NCBI RefSeq assembly: GCF_024399415.1 | Contig: NZ_CP029257.1 | Coordinates: forward strand, 1,573,501-1,637,500 | Origin: Streptococcus oralis | Lineage (GTDB): Bacteria > Bacillota > Bacilli > Lactobacillales > Streptococcaceae | DNA: 64,000 bases | Reading direction: 5' to 3' | In this document: piece by piece, positions 20,235 through 55,972 of the stretch | How the letters are laid out: every line of letters starts with the position of its first letter | How positions within the stretch are numbered: the stretch's first letter is position 1 | The notes under the pieces: generated by a model | The model's input: the letters and a program-made list of their open reading frames with translations, nothing else | Database searches by the model: none | Told to the model about the DNA's origin: nothing | Position numbers and translations under genes: made by a program

Positions 20235-23200
20235 TCAATGACTTTCTTGATCGTCATTCTGACTCTTCTTGGCAAGAAGACCGATACCTGTCACAGCTGC
20301 CAATGCTCCCAATAAAGCAGATGCTACGGAAGTCGACGCTCCTGTATTTGGCAAGACTTGTTTTGGCTTGCTTGAAGCAGATTGACCTTGTCTTGTAATG
20401 TTTGCCATTGAGAGAGAGGTGCTTGTTGAAGTAGATGCCAGAGCACTTGCTGACGCAGATCTACTAATAGAATCTGAAGTTGAGAGACTAGTGATAATCG
20501 ACGCTGACTCGCTCACTGACATGCTTGCTGAAACCGAAGTACTTGCTAGAGTCGATTCACTGGCTAACATGCTAGCTGAGAGTGATTCGCTCACTGAAGT
20601 ACTTGTTGAGATCGAAGCACTCTCCAACGCCAACTCGTCTGCTAGCATACTTGCAGAAGTTGATGTACTTGTTGATACCGATTGGCTAGCACTGACTGAT
20701 GCAGACTGGCTCGAGCTTACAGATACAGACTCACTCGCGCTGGCAGATGCAGACTGGCTAGCGCTGGCTGAAGCCGATTCGCTTGAGCTGACTGAGGCTG
20801 ACTGGCTGGCACTCAATGAAGCCGATTGACTCGAGCTTACTGAGGCGGACTCACTTGAGCTTGCCGAAGCTGATTGACTCAAGCTTACTGATGCTGACTG
20901 ACTAGCGCTCACTGAGGCTGACTGACTCGAACTTGCCGATGCCAATTGACTCGAGCTGGCTGAAGCGGATTCGCTCGAACTTACCGAAGCAGACTGACTA
21001 GCGCTTACTGATGCAGATTGGCTTGAGCTTATAGATACTGATTGACTAGCGCTGGCTGAGGCTGACTGGCTTGAGCTTGCTGACGCAGATTGACTCGAGC
21101 TGACTGATGCGGATTGGCTTGCGCTAACTGAAGCGGATTGGCTTGAACTTACTGATGCGGACTGACTCGAGCTTACAGACGCAGACTGACTGGCGCTCAC
21201 TGACGCTGATTGGCTAGCACTCGCTGAAGCTGATTGGCTCGAGCTTACAGATGCAGACTGACTGGCACTCACTGAAGCGGATTGACTAGCACTTACTGAT
21301 GTTGATTCACTTGCGCTGGCTGAAGCGGACTCACTTGCGCTTACTGAAGCGGATTGACTCGAGCTTACAGACGCAGACTGACTGGCGCTCACTGACGCTG
21401 ATTGGCTAGCGCTCGCTGATGCCGATTCGCTTGAACTTACTGAAGCTGACTGGCTAGCACTCGCTGAAGCTGATTGGCTCGAACTTACAGATGCAGACTG
21501 ACTGGCACTTACTGATGCTGATTCACTTGCGCTGGCTGAAGCTGATTGACTCGAACTTACAGATGCAGACTCACTCGAACTTACTGAGGCAGACTGACTT
21601 GCGCTCACTGAAGCGGATTGGCTCGCGCTCACTGAAGCAGATTCGCTGGAGCTTACAGACGCTGATTGACTCGAGCTTACTGATGCAGACTGACTCGAGC
21701 TGGCTGACGCAGATTCACTTGCGCTCACTGATGCGGATTGACTAGCACTCACTGATGCGGATTGGCTCGAGCTTACAGACGCTGACTGACTCGAGCTGGC
21801 TGACGCAGATTCACTTGCGCTCACTGAAGCGGACTGACTCGAACTTGCTGAGGCTGATTCACTTGCGCTCGCTGAGGCTGATTCGCTGGAGCTGACTGAG
21901 GCTGACTGGCTGGTGCTTACTGAAACAGACTGACTTGCACTCACTGACGCTGATTGGCTGGCGCTGGCTGAAGCGGATTGACTTGCACTTACTGATGCAG
22001 ATCGGCTGGTGCTTACTGAGGCTGATTCACTCGCACTTACCGATGCTGACTCACTGGCGCTCACCGAAGCAGACTCACTCGAACTTACTGAAGCGGACTC
22101 ACTTGCGCTTGCTGAAGCTGACTGACTCGAACTTACTGAGGCAGACTCACTCGAACTTGCTGAAGCCGATTGGCTCGAACTCACCGATGCAGACTGACTG
22201 GCACTCACTGACGCTGACTGACTGGCACTCACTGACGCCGATTGACTGGAGCTGGCTGAGGCAGACTGGCTGGAGCTTACTGAAGCAGATTCACTTGAAC
22301 TTACTGAAGCGGACTGACTGGCACTCGTTGAAGCGGACTGGCTCGAACTTACTGAAGCGGATTGGCTGGAGCTTACCGATGCTGATTGACTCGCACTTGC
22401 TGAAGCAGACTGACTTGAGCTTACGGACGCTGACTGGCTAGCACTTGCAGATGCTGATTGGCTCGAACTTGCTGAGGCAGATTGGCTGGCACTCAATGAA
22501 GCCGATTGACTCGAGCTTGCAGATGCTGACTGGCTGGAGCTTACTGAGGCAGACTGGCTCGCGCTCGCTGAAGCGGATTGGCTGGAGCTTACCGATGCTG
22601 ATCGACTCGCACTTGCTGAAGCAGACTGACTTGAGCTTACGGACGCTGACTGGCTCGAACTTGCTGAGGCTGACTGACTCGAGCTCAATGATGCAGACTG
22701 GCTCGAGCTGACTGAAGCTGACTCACTCGCACTTACAGATGCAGATTCGCTTGAACTTACAGATGCAGATTCGCTTGAACTTACAGATGCTGATTGGCTT
22801 GCACTCAATGAAGCTGACTGGCTCGAACTTACTGAAGCGGATTGGCTTGCACTCGCTGAAGCTGACTGACTCGAGCTCAATGATGCAGACTGGCTCGAGC
22901 TGACTGAAGCTGACTCACTCGCACTTACAGAAGCGGATTGGCTCGCGCTCGCTGAGGCTGACTCACTTGCACTCGCTGAAGCTGACTGACTTGAGCTAAC
23001 TGATGCAGATTTGCTTGAGCTGGCTGAGGCGGATTCGCTTGTGCTTACTGAAGCGGATTGACTAGAGCTCAATGATGCAGACTGGCTCGAGCTGACTGAA
23101 GCTGACTCACTCGCACTTACAGAAGCGGATTGGCTGGCACTCACTGAAGCGGATTGACTAGAGCTCACTGACGCTGATTGACTCGAGCTCGCTGATGCAG

Positions 23201-25913
23201 ATTCACTTGCACTTACTGAGGCGGATTGACTTGCACTTGCAGATGCTGATTGGCTGGAGCTTGTAGATGCAGACTGACTTGCACTCACTGAAGCGGATTG
23301 ACTTGCACTTACCGAGGCTGATTGGCTGGAGCTTGTAGATGCAGACTGACTTGCACTCACTGAAGCGGATTGACTTGCACTTACTGAGGCTGATTCACTT
23401 GTGCTTACTGAGGCAGACTGACTAGCACTTACCGAAGCTGACTGGCTTGCGCTCACTGATGCTGATTGACTTGCACTCGCTGAGGCTGACTCACTCGCAC
23501 TTACAGAAGCGGATTGACTAGCACTCGCTGAAGCTGACTGACTAGCACTTACTGATGCTGACTCACTTGCACTCAATGATGCAGATTGACTCGAGCTCGC
23601 TGAAGCGGATTGACTCGAGCTTACAGATGCAGATTCGCTTGAACTTACTGAGGCGGATTGACTAGCACTCAATGATGCAGATTGGCTGGAGCTTACTGAG
23701 GCTGATTGACTAGCACTTGCTGAAGCAGACTGGCTATTACTTACTGAAATTGACGCTTGATTTGGCGTGATTTGTCCATTAAATGTATCTGAAACCAAAC
23801 CATCCACTGTCGTACTTGCAGTCACCGGTCCACTAGGAAGTCGTCCTCCATTACGATCATATACCTTCTTCAGCTCATTTGCAGTAAAGGTTACACTAGT
23901 CGAGCTCACCGTTGCTTGTTTGGTGAACGTCTCCCCTGCAATTGTAAGAGTAACAGTCCCACCTGGAGTCACACTATCTACCGTAATCGCTTGATTTGTG
24001 AGACCACCTTTTTCGTTAAGGAAACGTTCTTCAATTCTAGGTGTCTGAGGGCGAACCTCAATCGGAATCTCTACTTCATCCGTACTTCCATCTGGATAAG
24101 TTACCACTGCAGTCAAATTATGCCGACCAGCAGACAAATTCGTATTGGTTCCAGATTTCCAAGTATAGGTTGTTCTAGTTCCCTTAGTAATTCCTGTAGT
24201 AGGTAATTCTGGTGTCCCTGTAGCATTCGTGATGTACTGACTGGCTTCACCAACAGAAACAGTCCCTGAATTGGCCGTTAGAGTAAAGTTTCGATTCACC
24301 TCAGCATTGATAGCTGGTTCGTACTTTTCAGACTGAGCATGAACTTCAAATTGAATTGCGGCAGGGTTGGCTGTTAAATCTTTTACAAGACCTACGTCAG
24401 TAGTATTTCCGCTAAAATTCCCTTCCTGATCATAGGTGAAAACATAACGGGTCCACAAACTATTTACTGCTTGATTTTTTCCAACAGAACCCGTGATTGA
24501 AACGGTGAAAGGATTTGATGCTGTAGCATTTCCATCTTTGGCTAGTTTATTTGTCGGAACAATCATGCTGATACTTTGACCATTACTCGTAGTGAATGAG
24601 ACAACAGTTGAAGTAGCCGGATAGGCCGCGGGAACAGCAGTAGGAACAAATTTTGCATGTTCAATTCGACCACTGTTATCAGTAAACTCAATGGTCGCAG
24701 AAAAATTTTCTTCTCGATAAATTTTAAATTTTTGTCCTTCTAGAACTGCGCCACCTGTAACGGTTATTTTCTGAAGTTCTGGCTTCTCTGTATCCCTAGC
24801 AGCTCTGAAGCTAGCAGTATTTGAAGCTTTGGTCAAAGCTTGTCCATTTCTGCTGTCACGAGGTCCAGAGTTGGCACGTAACACAGCATTTGCAATACTA
24901 TTTCGAGCTTCTGTAGCTTTTTGTAGGATAGTGGCAAGATCAGAAACCTCCCCTTTCAAGGCTTCTGCTATCTCATTCTTCGCTAGACTAGCCTTGGCAA
25001 TCGCCTCATCCGAGTTCGGAAGTCCCTGCGCTTGAGCTAGAAACTGCCCAATCTCAGCAGACAAGGCCTCTAATTTCTTCCGTTTTTCTTCATTTTGTTT
25101 TTCCGTCATGGCAACGGAAGTCATTGTGAGACCTGATTCAGCCGTCACATCTTCATTCTTTACAAGACCAGACTCACTTTGAGGCAAGGATTCTGTAGAA
25201 AAATCAACTGCTTTTAATTCTTTTGAAGGTTGTGATTCTTTCACTGTCTCCCGAGCTGGCTCACTTGCTTGGTACTGACTTTGAACACCAACTGAAGCTC
25301 TCTCTGACAGATTACTATTCGCTTGATTTTGTGTTCCAAGGGATTCACTTGAACTAGCAGTTACACTTTGACTGTTTGCCAAAGATTGACTAGTAGAAGC
25401 AGATTGGCTCATCGACTGGCTCATACTAGAAGAGCTTGAGGCACTGATGGACTGACTCGTAGAGGCAGATTGACTGGCGCTCTGCGAATTGAATTCTGAC
25501 AATGACTGGCTTTGACTGGTAGACAGAGACAAGCTAGCAGTATCTTGATGATCCTGAGTCGTCCCCAGTACTACTGAATCTCTCGTCGCCAAGGTATCTT
25601 TTGATTCGACAGTCTTTTCAACAGCGACTGCATCATTGGCATAAACACGCGTTTGCGTCGCAGCAAAACCACCTAAGATCGTCCCCGTAGCTGCTATCCC
25701 TTTCAAGACATCCAAGCCCGTCAACTTCTGACCTTCTTGCTTTTCAACCATTTCTGTCTTTACTTGGCTCGTATCCGCGCTTCCACGCATCACCTTAAAT
25801 AAGCCAAAAAGGGAAGTCGAGGCCCGTAGCCAATGCTTCCCTGATTTGATTAATTTGTACCGTGTCACACGGTCTGTTTCTCTATATTCACCTTTCTGGC
25901 GTCTAAAAAACAT
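20235..25913 (-). CDS. Serine-rich-repeat adhesin with accessory Sec signal, siglec-like region and LPNTG anchor
   Basis: An 1892-residue surface glycoprotein. Residues 1-92 are a long signal peptide with the accessory-Sec motif (KLIKSGKHW at 20-28; Ile replaces Tyr of the KxYKxGKxW consensus, as in Fap1) and likely cleavage after VYA92. Residues about 125-190 are a short serine-rich region, 270-350 a helical segment, and 378-535 a likely siglec-like domain with WTRY at 487-490 matching the aromatic-T-R-X sialic-acid motif. Residues 540-620 and 625-718 are β-rich domains, the first ending in [16 protein letters not shown] second serine-rich region (about 727-1747) of 8-residue repeats follows, then a degenerate stalk, LPNTG at 1854-1858, a membrane helix and a charged tail. 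It should be glycosylated by GtfA/B, exported by SecA2/Y2 and anchored by sortase. Sialoglycan binding is a prediction. Confidence 0.93.
20673..23735 (-). repeat. SRR2 tandem repeat tract of the adhesin
   Basis: About 3 kb of 24-base tandem units (around 127) coding for SAS[V/A/L/T]S[A/S/T]S[Q/E]. The third base of many codons varies between units, so DNA identity is lower than protein identity. The first and third serines of each unit are constant. Such tracts are prone to length change and to assembly collapse. Confidence 0.9.
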
Positions 25914-25968
25914 GTTACTTCCCTCTATATAAAAAAGAATTTATTCACCTATAAAATACTATCTTTTT

Positions 25969-25997
25969 ATTATATACCAAATATACCTACAATTCAA
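25969..25997 (-). promoter_or_regulatory. Promoter of the SRR adhesin gene
   Basis: Minus-strand TTGAAT, 17-base spacer, TATAAT, about 56 bases before the adhesin ATG. A ribosome site GAGGGA lies close to the start. Confidence 0.75.
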
Positions 25998-26195
25998 TAT
26001 CTATAACACACTCTAAAGAAAGAAAATGATTTCAAAAATAACTTGATTTCAAATCTATTCTGTTTTTTCAATATAATCTTCATTTTATTGTTCTATTAAT
26101 ATATTTTATTTATTTTTTAACCATTTCCAAATGCTTTAAAATTTGAGCAAATAATTCCAATCACTCAGGGAATTGATTTTTATTCAAAATATAGA
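25998..26195. other. Very AT-rich spacer upstream of the adhesin promoter
   Basis: About 200 bases dominated by A/T runs, with no open frame or repeat that I can support. It could be curved DNA or a binding region for global regulators acting on the adhesin promoter; nothing specific is visible. Confidence 0.5.
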
Positions 26196-26739
26196 AAAAG
26201 TCCATGAATCAATAGCATCCACAGACTTTTAGGAGTAGAGTATTTAAAGGTAGTTTCACAAATGAACTAATGAGACCGGTAGCCGAGGTAACTTTCTATC
26301 CTTTCCAACAAAAAATTCCATACTAATTAATAGCCGTAATCTACGACACTGAGTTTTACAAATCGATTTCATTTGTAAAACGTGGTTACGACGGAAAAAT
26401 CCACGAATCGATAATATTCGTGGATTTTTCCTAGTGAAGCGTTTAGGTAAGCAGCCATAGCAGTTACCTATTATTAGATTACGACACTGAGTTTTACGAC
26501 GTAAAGTTTTACGAATCGATAATATTCGTAAAACTTTACTAGTGGAGCGCCTAGCCAAGTTCCATAGAAACTTGTCGTTAGTTACTTAGATTGTAACATA
26601 AACAAATAAATTTCTTGAACAACGACACGGAGTTTGGCAAATCGATTCTATTTGCCAAACGTAGTTAGTAAGGCAGTTAGCTAGTTCGCAAAATAGCGAC
26701 TAGCGTCCAACAATTAGGAACTTTAGTTCCAATTGTTGG
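26196..26739. repeat. Array of hairpins with differing stems and a common loop type
   Basis: Six inverted repeats lie between prfC and the adhesin. Four are perfect: 26353-26381 (11 bp), 26393-26431 (16 bp), 26501-26539 (16 bp) and 26632-26660 (11 bp). All four have a 7-base loop starting CGAT, and their arms end AAT/ATT at the loop. 26196-26230 has the same build with loop CAATAGC and three mismatches. 26707-26739 is a 14-bp stem with another loop (TTTA). The flank ACGACAC(T/G)GAG precedes three of them. Most lack a T tract, so they are not ordinary terminators; 26196-26230 is followed by U-rich sequence on the minus strand and might end the prfC transcript. I cannot match them to BOX, RUP or SPRITE elements. 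Confidence 0.8.
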
Positions 26740-26746
26740 TGCTGAG

Positions 26747-28291
26747 TTACATTTTTTCCTCCAACTCCACATCTGGATACTTATCCGCAAACCAGCGGAG
26801 GGCAAAGTCATTTTCAAAGAGGAAGACTGGTTGGTCGAAGCGGTCCTTGGCCAAGATATTGCGGCTTGAGGACATCCGCTCATCCAAGTCCTCAGGCTTG
26901 ATCCAACGAACGGTCTTTTTACCCATTGGGCTCATGACTACTTCGGCATTGTACTCGCCTTCCATGCGGTGCTTAAAGACTTCAAACTGAAGTTGTCCGA
27001 CAGCGCCTAGCATGTACTCGCCTGTTTGGTAATTCTTATAAAGCTGAATGGCTCCTTCTTGCACCAATTGCTCAATCCCCTTGTGGAAGGATTTTTGTTT
27101 CATGACGTTCTTAGCAGAAACTTTCATGAAAATTTCAGGAGTAAAGGTTGGAAGGGGTTCAAATTCAAACTTATTTTTTCCAACCGTCAAGGTGTCTCCA
27201 ACTTGATAGGTACCCGTATCATAAACCCCGATGATATCTCCAGCCACGGCATTAGTCACATTCTCACGACTTTCAGCCATAAACTGAGTCACATTCGATA
27301 GTTTGGCAGTCTTACCAGTACGAGGCAGATTGACACTCATTCCACGCTCAAATTCACCTGATACGATACGAACAAAGGCGATACGGTCACGGTGACGAGG
27401 GTCCATGTTGGCTTGGATTTTAAAGACAAATCCTGAGAAATCCTTGTCATAAGGATCCACAATTTCGCCATCTGTTTTCTTGTGGCCATGTGGTTCTGGA
27501 GCAAACTTAAGGAAGGTCTCAAGGAAGGTCTGCACACCAAAGTTAGTCAAGGCTGAACCAAAGAAGACTGGAGTCAGTTCTCCTGCAAGAATAGCTTCTT
27601 CTGAAAACTCATTTCCAGCTTCATTTAAAAGCTCAATATCATCTTTAACTTGCTCGTAGAAAGGATTGCTACCAAAAAGCTTGTCCCCATCTTCTAGGCT
27701 AGCAAAACGCTCATCACCCTTGTAAAGTTCCAGGCGTTGGTTATAGAGGTCATAGAGCCCTTCAAAGGCTTTCCCCATCCCGATTGGCCAGTTCATAGGA
27801 TAGCTCGCAATACCAAGGACTTCTTCTAGTTCTTGCAAGAGGTCCAGTGGCTCACGACCGTCACGGTCCAGCTTGTTCATAAAGGTAAAGACTGGAATGC
27901 CACGGTGCTTCACAACCTCAAACAATTTCTTGGTTTGGGCCTCGATACCCTTGGCAGAGTCCACGACCATGACCGCAGCATCCACCGCCATCAAGGTACG
28001 ATAGGTATCTTCTGAGAAGTCCTCGTGCCCTGGTGTGTCGAGGATGTTCACGCGCTTGCCATCGTAGTCAAACTGCATAACAGATGAAGTGACCGAAATC
28101 CCACGTTGTTTCTCGATATCCATCCAGTCAGACTTGGCAAAAGTCCCTGTTTTCTTTCCTTTAACCGTACCAGCCTCACGAATCTCGCCCCCAAAGTAAA
28201 GCAACTGCTCAGTAATAGTTGTCTTCCCCGCGTCCGGGTGGGAGATGATGGCAAAGGTACGGCGTTTCTTGATTTCTTCTTGAATAGTCAT
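26747..28291 (-). CDS. prfC: Peptide chain release factor 3 (RF3)
   Basis: A 514-residue translational GTPase that frees RF1/RF2 from the ribosome after peptide release. G1 is SHPDAGKTT (residues 18-26), G3 DTPGHEDF, and G4 MNKLDRD. The residues after the G domain ([18 protein letters not shown]) and the domain 2-3 block ([21 protein letters not shown]) are typical of RF3. The length is the family's usual. It is a single gene with its own promoter, transcribed toward the hairpin array and the adhesin. Confidence 0.95.
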
Positions 28292-55838: not shown

Positions 55839-55879
55839 TGGAATGCTTAGATAAATGCCAAAAAGTGGTCTATCCTAGC

Positions 55880-55972
55880 TCTGTCCTTTTACCTGAGAGT
55901 TTGAGCAGTTGCCTGCCTTGCCCCTTCGGTGCCTTTACGGTCTCTCCAGAGTTCCGTCCATTTACAGTCATG
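55880..55972 (-). promoter_or_regulatory. Glycine riboswitch aptamer
   Basis: Minus strand shows the conserved blocks CTCTGGAGAGACC, GGCACCGAAGGGGCAA and CTCAAACTCTCAGGTAAAA, then GGACAGAG. CTCTG and CAGAG pair to close P1. I see only one complete aptamer; a short segment upstream (around 55975-56000) with GTGGAGAAAGG might be a degenerate partner. It should control the symporter through the terminator at 55804-55838. Confidence 0.92.

Follow-up and report, generated by a model that had tools for sequence, protein, structure and literature searches.

What are the hairpins that stand in tandem between prfC and an adhesin gene of Streptococcus oralis, with stems that differ from one to the next and loops of one CGAT type? 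We studied them in a 64,000-nucleotide stretch of contig NZ_CP029257.1 (positions 1,573,501 to 1,637,500), referred to here as the window. A first-pass annotation of this DNA had offered two options, a structured RNA or protein-binding family kept under selection for pairing, or a mobile palindrome that amplifies with stem variation. Each was borne out in part, and both seem to be true of one thing, since the pairing covaries and the copies are dispersed, modular and variably present. The hairpins are real, and each is the first hairpin (H1) of a longer unit. This unit is folded, strand-specific and modular, occurs dispersed, differs in presence between genomes, docks at stop codons and keeps no orientation to genes. 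We think it probable that these units form a Streptococcus-wide family of modular, mobile-looking repeats that is related to BOX elements, folds into three hairpins on one strand, docks at stop codons, grows in tandem and is recognised by its shape.

Comparison of the array with related loci gave the plan of the unit, which spans about 125-130 nucleotides (nt) and consists, in order, of TTACGAC, H1, TAGTRAGGNNNNTAG, a second hairpin (H2), a third hairpin (H3) and a tip of a few bases. H1 takes up roughly the first third and is a 16-base-pair (bp) hairpin with the 7-nt loop CGAYNNN; the loop of H2 is approximately CCATAG and that of H3 is CTTTAG. With CGAC and the loop as boundaries and 11-19 bp permitted, 16 bp was the length of 264 of the 283 stems accepted and 15 bp that of the other 19, the choice of length partly favouring TAGT behind the stem. 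Allowing 15-17 bp gave 16 bp in 357 of 383 rows and 15 bp in 26. Neighbouring units on the same strand are mostly spaced 75-80 or 124-126 nt apart.

The stems were checked for being identical everywhere and were found to differ between copies. Among 19 H1 sequences, retained from 26 arms after near-duplicates were excluded, double-sided changes occurred in all 16 pairs and covariation was 0.976, compared with 0.220 in shuffles. For the full unit we aligned 31 of 41 diverse copies, having excluded 10 by eye because H3 was incomplete or the copy resembled another, and the structure predicted by RNAalifold consisted of the three hairpins H1, H2 and H3 together with an outer helix of three pairs. 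In this alignment 93.1% of cells were paired (61.7% when shuffled, at most 48.3% when slid), 285 cells carried a double change (89.0 in shuffles) and covariation was 0.875 (0.254 in shuffles, at most 0.203 when slid), in keeping with the earlier observation that the arms vary between members and stay complementary; these values lean towards structure because the scans that chose the sequences required H1 pairing and an H3-like loop. The pairing of H2 played no part in choosing the units, and there 91.2% of cells were paired, with double changes in six of seven pairs. That the shape is kept while the letters of the stem change suggests that the folded single strand itself is recognised in the cell.

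Mispairs in H1 pointed to the folding strand. The 256 non-redundant 16-bp arm pairs contained 299 A.G/G.A mispairs and 27 T.C/C.T mispairs, mostly at stem positions 11-13 from the loop, along with 129 G.U and 75 A.C pairs. After thinning to arms that differ at more than 5 of 16 positions, which left about 42 stems, the means were 40.9 for A.G/G.A and 3.6 for T.C/C.T (p about 1e-8 on rounded means). An A.G/G.A internal loop that is specific to one strand implies that the unit strand, and not its complement, has the conserved fold. These counts show the unit strand to be the one whose internal loop is conserved, mainly through the loop at positions 11-13. Sheared G.A pairs can form in both RNA and single-stranded DNA, so the asymmetry does not separate the two.

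The distribution of the unit was evaluated with two covariance models, R1 for H1 with its flanks and R2 for the full unit, the latter carrying a spurious pair (columns 25 and 31) within the loop of H1. At most 27 candidates per genome were scored in the genus sample, 150 in a deeper set, 18 in the order sample and 8 in the phylum sample, so that all counts are lower bounds. The search of relatives with a covariance model, as proposed in the first-pass annotation, was productive: R1 matched 173 of 197 sampled Streptococcus genomes at E up to 0.01, and deeper scoring at E up to 0.1 gave 118 matches in genome G035, 129 in G120, 34 in G064 and 17 in G014. In the order sample 42 of 295 genomes matched at E up to 0.001, all of them Streptococcus (one of 74 genera), and among the rows listed at least four Streptococcus genomes had no match. 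R2 matched two of 398 genomes in the phylum sample at E up to 0.01, both again Streptococcus (one of 266 genera); given the few candidates per genome (18 and 8) and strict filters, a weak relative outside the genus could have escaped detection. Scanning named genomes for the pattern gave at least 116 stretches, and all 80 among the matches listed were from Streptococcus, including S. oralis, S. mitis, S. infantis, S. cristatus, S. pseudopneumoniae, S. pneumoniae, S. suis, S. sobrinus, S. acidominimus and S. moroccensis. The window genome has units at three places, plus two more found by the R2 phylum search.

With this plan the array of the window can be read as follows.

26196-26209/26217-26230, plus strand: degenerate H1 relic with loop CAATAGC and 79% complementarity over 14 pairs
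26342-26386, plus strand: unit 1, H1 only; TACGAC and a 16-bp stem (26348-26363/26371-26386) with internal loop, loop CGATTTC
26353-26363/26371-26381, plus strand: perfect arms of 11 bp, loop CGATTTC (inverted-repeat listing)
26386-26470, plus strand: unit 2; TTACGAC, H1 at 26393-26431 (loop CGATAAT), linker TAGTGAAGCGTTTAG and H2, no H3 seen
26393-26408/26416-26431, plus strand: perfect arms of 16 bp, loop CGATAAT (inverted-repeat listing)
26480-26497, plus strand: beginning of a further, truncated unit (TACGACACTGAGTTTTAC) that runs into unit 3
26495-26612, plus strand: unit 3; TACGAC, H1 at 26501-26539 (loop CGATAAT), linker, H2 (loop CCATAG) and a decayed H3
26501-26516/26524-26539, plus strand: perfect arms of 16 bp, loop CGATAAT (inverted-repeat listing)
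26620-26746, plus strand: unit 4; ACGAC flank, H1 at 26627-26665 (loop CGATTCT), linker, H2 at 26680-26704, H3 at 26707-26739 and tip TGCTGAG
26632-26642/26650-26660, plus strand: perfect arms of 11 bp, loop CGATTCT (read from the sequence)
26747-26749, minus strand: prfC stop codon (reads TTA on the plus strand), next to the tip of unit 4 with no gap
26747-28291, minus strand: prfC, right of the array, which ends at 26746
20235-25913, minus strand: adhesin gene, left of the array on the gene start side, with GspA/SrpA and LPXTG domains (Pfam)

The array thus holds, as first described, four plus-strand hairpins with 7-nt CGAT-type loops (CGATTTC, CGATAAT, CGATAAT and CGATTCT) and one degenerate relic, in tandem between prfC and the adhesin gene. 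Stem lengths had been put at 11 or 16 bp; the perfect arms are as described, but both 11-bp members are 16-bp stems in register, where an internal loop, with three bases on each side, is closed by the outer pairs. The motif AATCGATNNNATT has four copies in the window, all inside the array, where 0.18 were expected (100 shuffles). Part of the reported flank ACGACACTGAG belongs to the stem, and only ACGAC is flank. Unit 4 is the sole complete three-hairpin unit of the array (R2 match 26620-26751, 114 bits, E 1.6e-21); in the others H3 is absent or the unit has decayed. Unit 2 matched R2 at 26386-26506 with 74 bits, the H3 part of the model being skipped, and the matches of unit 1 (26349-26385, 18.2 bits) and unit 3 (26507-26619, 25.5 bits, weak) were lower. 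The relic at 26196-26230 has no CGAC flank and gave no match to R2 at E up to 1.

The array gave no match in phage and plasmid collections, and none in Rfam (release 15) at the gathering score; at E up to 1 Rfam returned three sub-threshold matches (E 0.43-0.54) and nothing else over a unit. No unit in 20 and 4 further loci matched Rfam at the gathering score either.

The abutment of unit 4 on the prfC stop codon is a recurring arrangement. The distance from H1 to the stop codon was 74-79 nt in 14 of 46 distinct convergent genes that face the 3' tip of a unit, with stop codons that read, on the unit strand, TTA (8), TCA (5) or CTA (1). In the other neighbourhoods the 70-79 nt bin held 2 of 42 genes (3' tip, gene start), 1 of 49 (5' end, gene stop) and 0 of 48 (5' end, gene start), and no 10-nt bin under 400 nt held more than four. 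Among the 14 docked genes prfC is certain, and the ends of a GroEL-like and a pyruvate-dehydrogenase-like gene were named by eye. The prfC stop codon itself is followed by differing arrays, other repeats or none in 30 loci from 30 genomes. Relative to tandem neighbour genes, 27 units had the same and 26 the opposite orientation (49 tandem contexts from 67 grouped loci, where grouping by single linkage of neighbour proteins merges unrelated loci and open reading frames (ORFs) were called mechanically). Enrichment between convergent genes was considered and set aside (10 of 65, compared with 139 of 1091 background pairs). A pdhA-pdhB-like spacer (L326-L334) contains different insertions that look like repeats, and several of them likewise reach exactly to the upstream gene's stop codon.

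Presence and absence at purM (6 of 20 loci filled) and filled and empty sites at metK support the mobility of the units. The empty site upstream of metK, seen in L402, has the sequence GTTATA-GAGTTACAAAGTACTGATAGAAAATTCTA-CC. In L397 and L208 a 29-bp copy of this stretch stands on both sides of the unit (28 of 29 identical), L227 and L136 have a shorter duplicate, L400, L401 and L132 hold a unit with the right copy only, and L398 and L399 carry several tandem units. Since GAGTTAC also stands at the junction of the unit itself, part of the match may derive from the unit. In purM the insertion follows codon 8, and the unit is flanked by two diverged copies of about 40 bp that contain the ribosome-binding site, the start and the first codons; six of the 20 loci listed were filled (L365-L369 and L372) and 14 unfilled. 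Since the duplication would protect the gene at both sites, selection for it, or an earlier tandem duplication, is possible. We also considered long target duplication as a general rule and rejected it, because most flanks lack one: 12 of 194 flank pairs share at least 14 bp, compared with 3 of 962 shuffled pairs, and of these 12, eight are the metK site in different genomes, two are parts of the unit and two lie at L147 and L121. Long duplications are therefore established for two events only.

Several further observations concern these sites. Units are inserted in the metK leader of L395-L401, L227, L208 and L136, and this leader presumably resembles an S-adenosylmethionine-binding leader; Rfam gave no match on the metK leader loci L402, L408, L395 and L400. 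The far end of the metK query has matches at seven more places in the window genome (G000 C1:207880, 193782, 544758, 402227, 67006, 1916988 and 413520), and in L395 this end appears BOX-like by eye. In the purF-purM spacer (L365-L369 and L372; G000:C1:42182-43582) a leader frame of 14 codons remains where the unit precedes purM; it is a copy of the purM start, is followed by the hairpins and is readable in six of six filled loci. Judged from sequence, this leader frame with its hairpins looks like a possible attenuator.

We read the family as a new branch of BOX-type structured interspersed repeats. BOX elements have TACTC...GAGTA terminal inverted repeats, which are seen in the copies of G035 but not around the window array. 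In G035, GAGTA forms the end of 12 of 15 aligned copies, and five show TACTCTTC at the other end of the aligned stretch; the BOX copy on L163 shows both GAGTA/TACTCTTC-type ends, and those on L174 and L209 show one. The units in G035 are end modules of elements with BOX ends, a relation not foreseen in the first-pass annotation, whereas the window array is tandem and lacks such ends. Neighbouring units on opposite strands were divergent in seven of seven cases (not deduplicated), as expected if each unit is an end module. A pneumococcal-type BOX also lies inside the H1 stem of L372, with a TTA duplication relative to the uninterrupted stem in related genomes. Like the unit, with its 14 docked genes, BOX has tips at gene stop codons, and the consulted sections of Croucher et al. 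(2011; PMC3049150) give 36 genes with a stop codon within a BOX repeat.

The two are also distinct in several respects. Pneumococcal-type BOX has sequence modules that the unit does not share, as judged by R2 on the tested copies, and the arrays of the window, the S. mitis type and the S. suis type end otherwise than the BOX copies. According to the consulted sections of PMC3049150, its repeats occur in S. pneumoniae and S. mitis and are almost wholly absent from other streptococci, though S. suis has a related set, and those of PMC3875467 report 14 BOX in small-intestinal streptococci, using the PMC3049150 models; against BOX as reported from these few species stand the 173 Streptococcus genomes that carry the unit. 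The S. suis BOX-type families include boxE (mean 115 nt) and boxF (mean 133 nt), and boxF comes close to the unit in mean size (PMC3049150, consulted sections). The boxE/boxF modules may be the unit of the window array.

An exact match to an already described element had been named as an outcome that would refute the first-pass reading; the BOX copies tested were not matched, and SPRITE is unlike by description. RUP, the third element named, is a 107-bp repeat with IS630-Spn1 ends. SPRITE shares a long hairpin, an intergenic position and a streptococcal host with the unit, but the parts of its description consulted give an 18-bp duplex followed by a U-rich tract, and AAAA/TTTT ends, whereas the unit forms three hairpins, of which H1 has 16 bp and is not followed by a T tract, a comparison made by description only. 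In the main text, as far as consulted, of the open-access papers PMC3049150, PMC2267715, PMC2828477, PMC3875467, PMC3395615 and PMC10969869, we found no unit with variable stems and constant loops; the text of PMC4427978 has no BOX terms. We also compared the general habit of the unit with that of other repeats. Repetitive extragenic palindromic (REP) sequences, bacterial interspersed mosaic elements (BIME) and other palindromic units are likewise folded and interspersed, occur in tandem arrays and sit after genes. By general description, the three-hairpin anatomy and the occurrence seen in one genus only set our unit apart from these.

We propose that the units of about 125-130 nt would be small, modular, non-coding interspersed repeats forming a branch related to the BOX-type composites. 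The fold of each unit would form on one defined strand and comprise three hairpins, whose loops are conserved while their stems vary freely. Such units presumably move or have moved, may be selfish and moved in trans, would dock with the 3' tip where insertion does no harm, for instance at stop codons, and could multiply in place as tandem arrays by recombination. Pairing would be kept because the folded single strand, either DNA during movement or RNA, is recognised by its shape, loops and flanks, and the likely target of recognition is the folded strand with the loops CGAY, CCATAG and CTTTAG and the flanks CGAC and TAGT.

Several results weigh against this proposal. The number of pairs with double changes in the full-unit alignment, 25 of 28, is little above that in shuffles (22.0, with 18 of 500 shuffles reaching 25). 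Outside positions 11-13 the mispair asymmetry is weak (33 A.G/G.A, 22 T.C/C.T), and after thinning the ratio of G.U to A.C, 26.7 to 16.3, is not significant (p 0.13). The duplications at metK (29 bp) and purM (about 40 bp) differ from the 3-bp TTA duplication of the BOX in L372. BOX-like ends are absent beside the array: the window has seven matches at up to two mismatches, compared with 7.7 expected, the nearest to the array (26809-26823) lying inside prfC. R2 gave no significant match on the BOX copies of L163, L174 and L209 (one overlapping match, 8.7 bits, E 1.6), although it does find other, genuine units there. Finally, no mobilising gene was found by a Y1 transposase family search of 24 genomes and inspection by eye of the ORFs between units; by eye and from the first 50 residues, with no family search run, none of the longest of these ORFs is transposase-like, and several resemble housekeeping genes.

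An unlikely alternative is that the units serve the host as RNA structures, acting in transcripts as terminators, mRNA stabilisers or attenuators. The RNA-like covariation, the docking of tips at stop codons and the insertions in the metK leader and before purM would agree with this, as would the reported transcription of related BOX elements (PMC3395615 and PMC3049150, consulted sections). The terminator scan cuts both ways. It returned four terminator-like sites in 25914-26746, compared with 0.3 in shuffles, namely the relic and 26333-26347, both on the minus strand, and the H3 core (26717-26730) on both strands, but none of the four H1 hairpins was terminator-like. The earlier argument against simple terminators from a lack of T tracts holds for H1 but not for the H3 core and the relic; we rejected simple terminators as a description of the H1 hairpins. 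The evenly split orientation to tandem genes, the folding strand being antisense to the docked gene, and the different arrays at one site in related genomes further argue against a host role.

As for how units might spread, we regard one specific scheme as rather improbable, in which mobile DNA travels as a folded single strand recognised by shape and inserts by strand exchange or template switching at TTA(C)-type matches, leaving duplications of about 29-40 bp, with BOX composites arising from two captured units. It is doubtful that the units are non-autonomous IS200/IS605-like elements, which a Y1 transposase would move as single strands to positions 3' of TTAC by way of their folded ends. 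The target of IS608 is TTAC, the fold is strand-specific, TTAC directly precedes the first hairpin in many units, and TTA or TTAC stands at many 3' junctions. Y1 genes occur in 16 of the 24 genomes examined, but the window genome (G000) has no Y1 match, and their presence in 10 of 12 unit-rich genomes (window genome included) and 6 of 12 without a unit match gives no clear link to unit abundance, so that a linked Y1 transposase was set aside. The composite elements, moreover, have inverted, outward-facing ends, and to our knowledge long direct duplications are not expected of this mechanism. Very doubtful is quasipalindrome correction, in which template switching repairs one arm from the other so that mutation and not selection keeps the pairing: neighbouring copies do have perfect arms of different sequence, and after thinning A-C-type mispairs show no significant deficit relative to G-U, but correction would remove the A.G and G.A mispairs that recur at stem positions 11 and 13 (found together in 68 of 256 arm pairs), leaves the fixed stem length, constant loops and flanks unexplained, and as the sole cause has the strand-specific mismatch motif against it.

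Earlier work presented BOX-like repeats as short, sequence-defined elements of a few streptococcal species, and we place beside them a three-hairpin unit that is defined by its fold, genus-wide and BOX-related. Because the stems vary, such units likely escape sequence models, and the covariance model can be used for annotating streptococcal genomes. The family also offers a testable handle on what mobilises BOX-type elements, and the insertions that occur naturally in the metK leader and at the start of purM offer sites for measuring effects on expression.

Two further features of the window were recorded. The adhesin (20235-25913) has a KxYKxGKxW signal and GspA/SrpA Siglec-like, Rib and LPXTG domains, and its repeat region matches the profile of the phage T4 gp5 C-terminal repeat. 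A glycine riboswitch (RF00504, 63.9 bits) lies at 55871-55959 on the minus strand.
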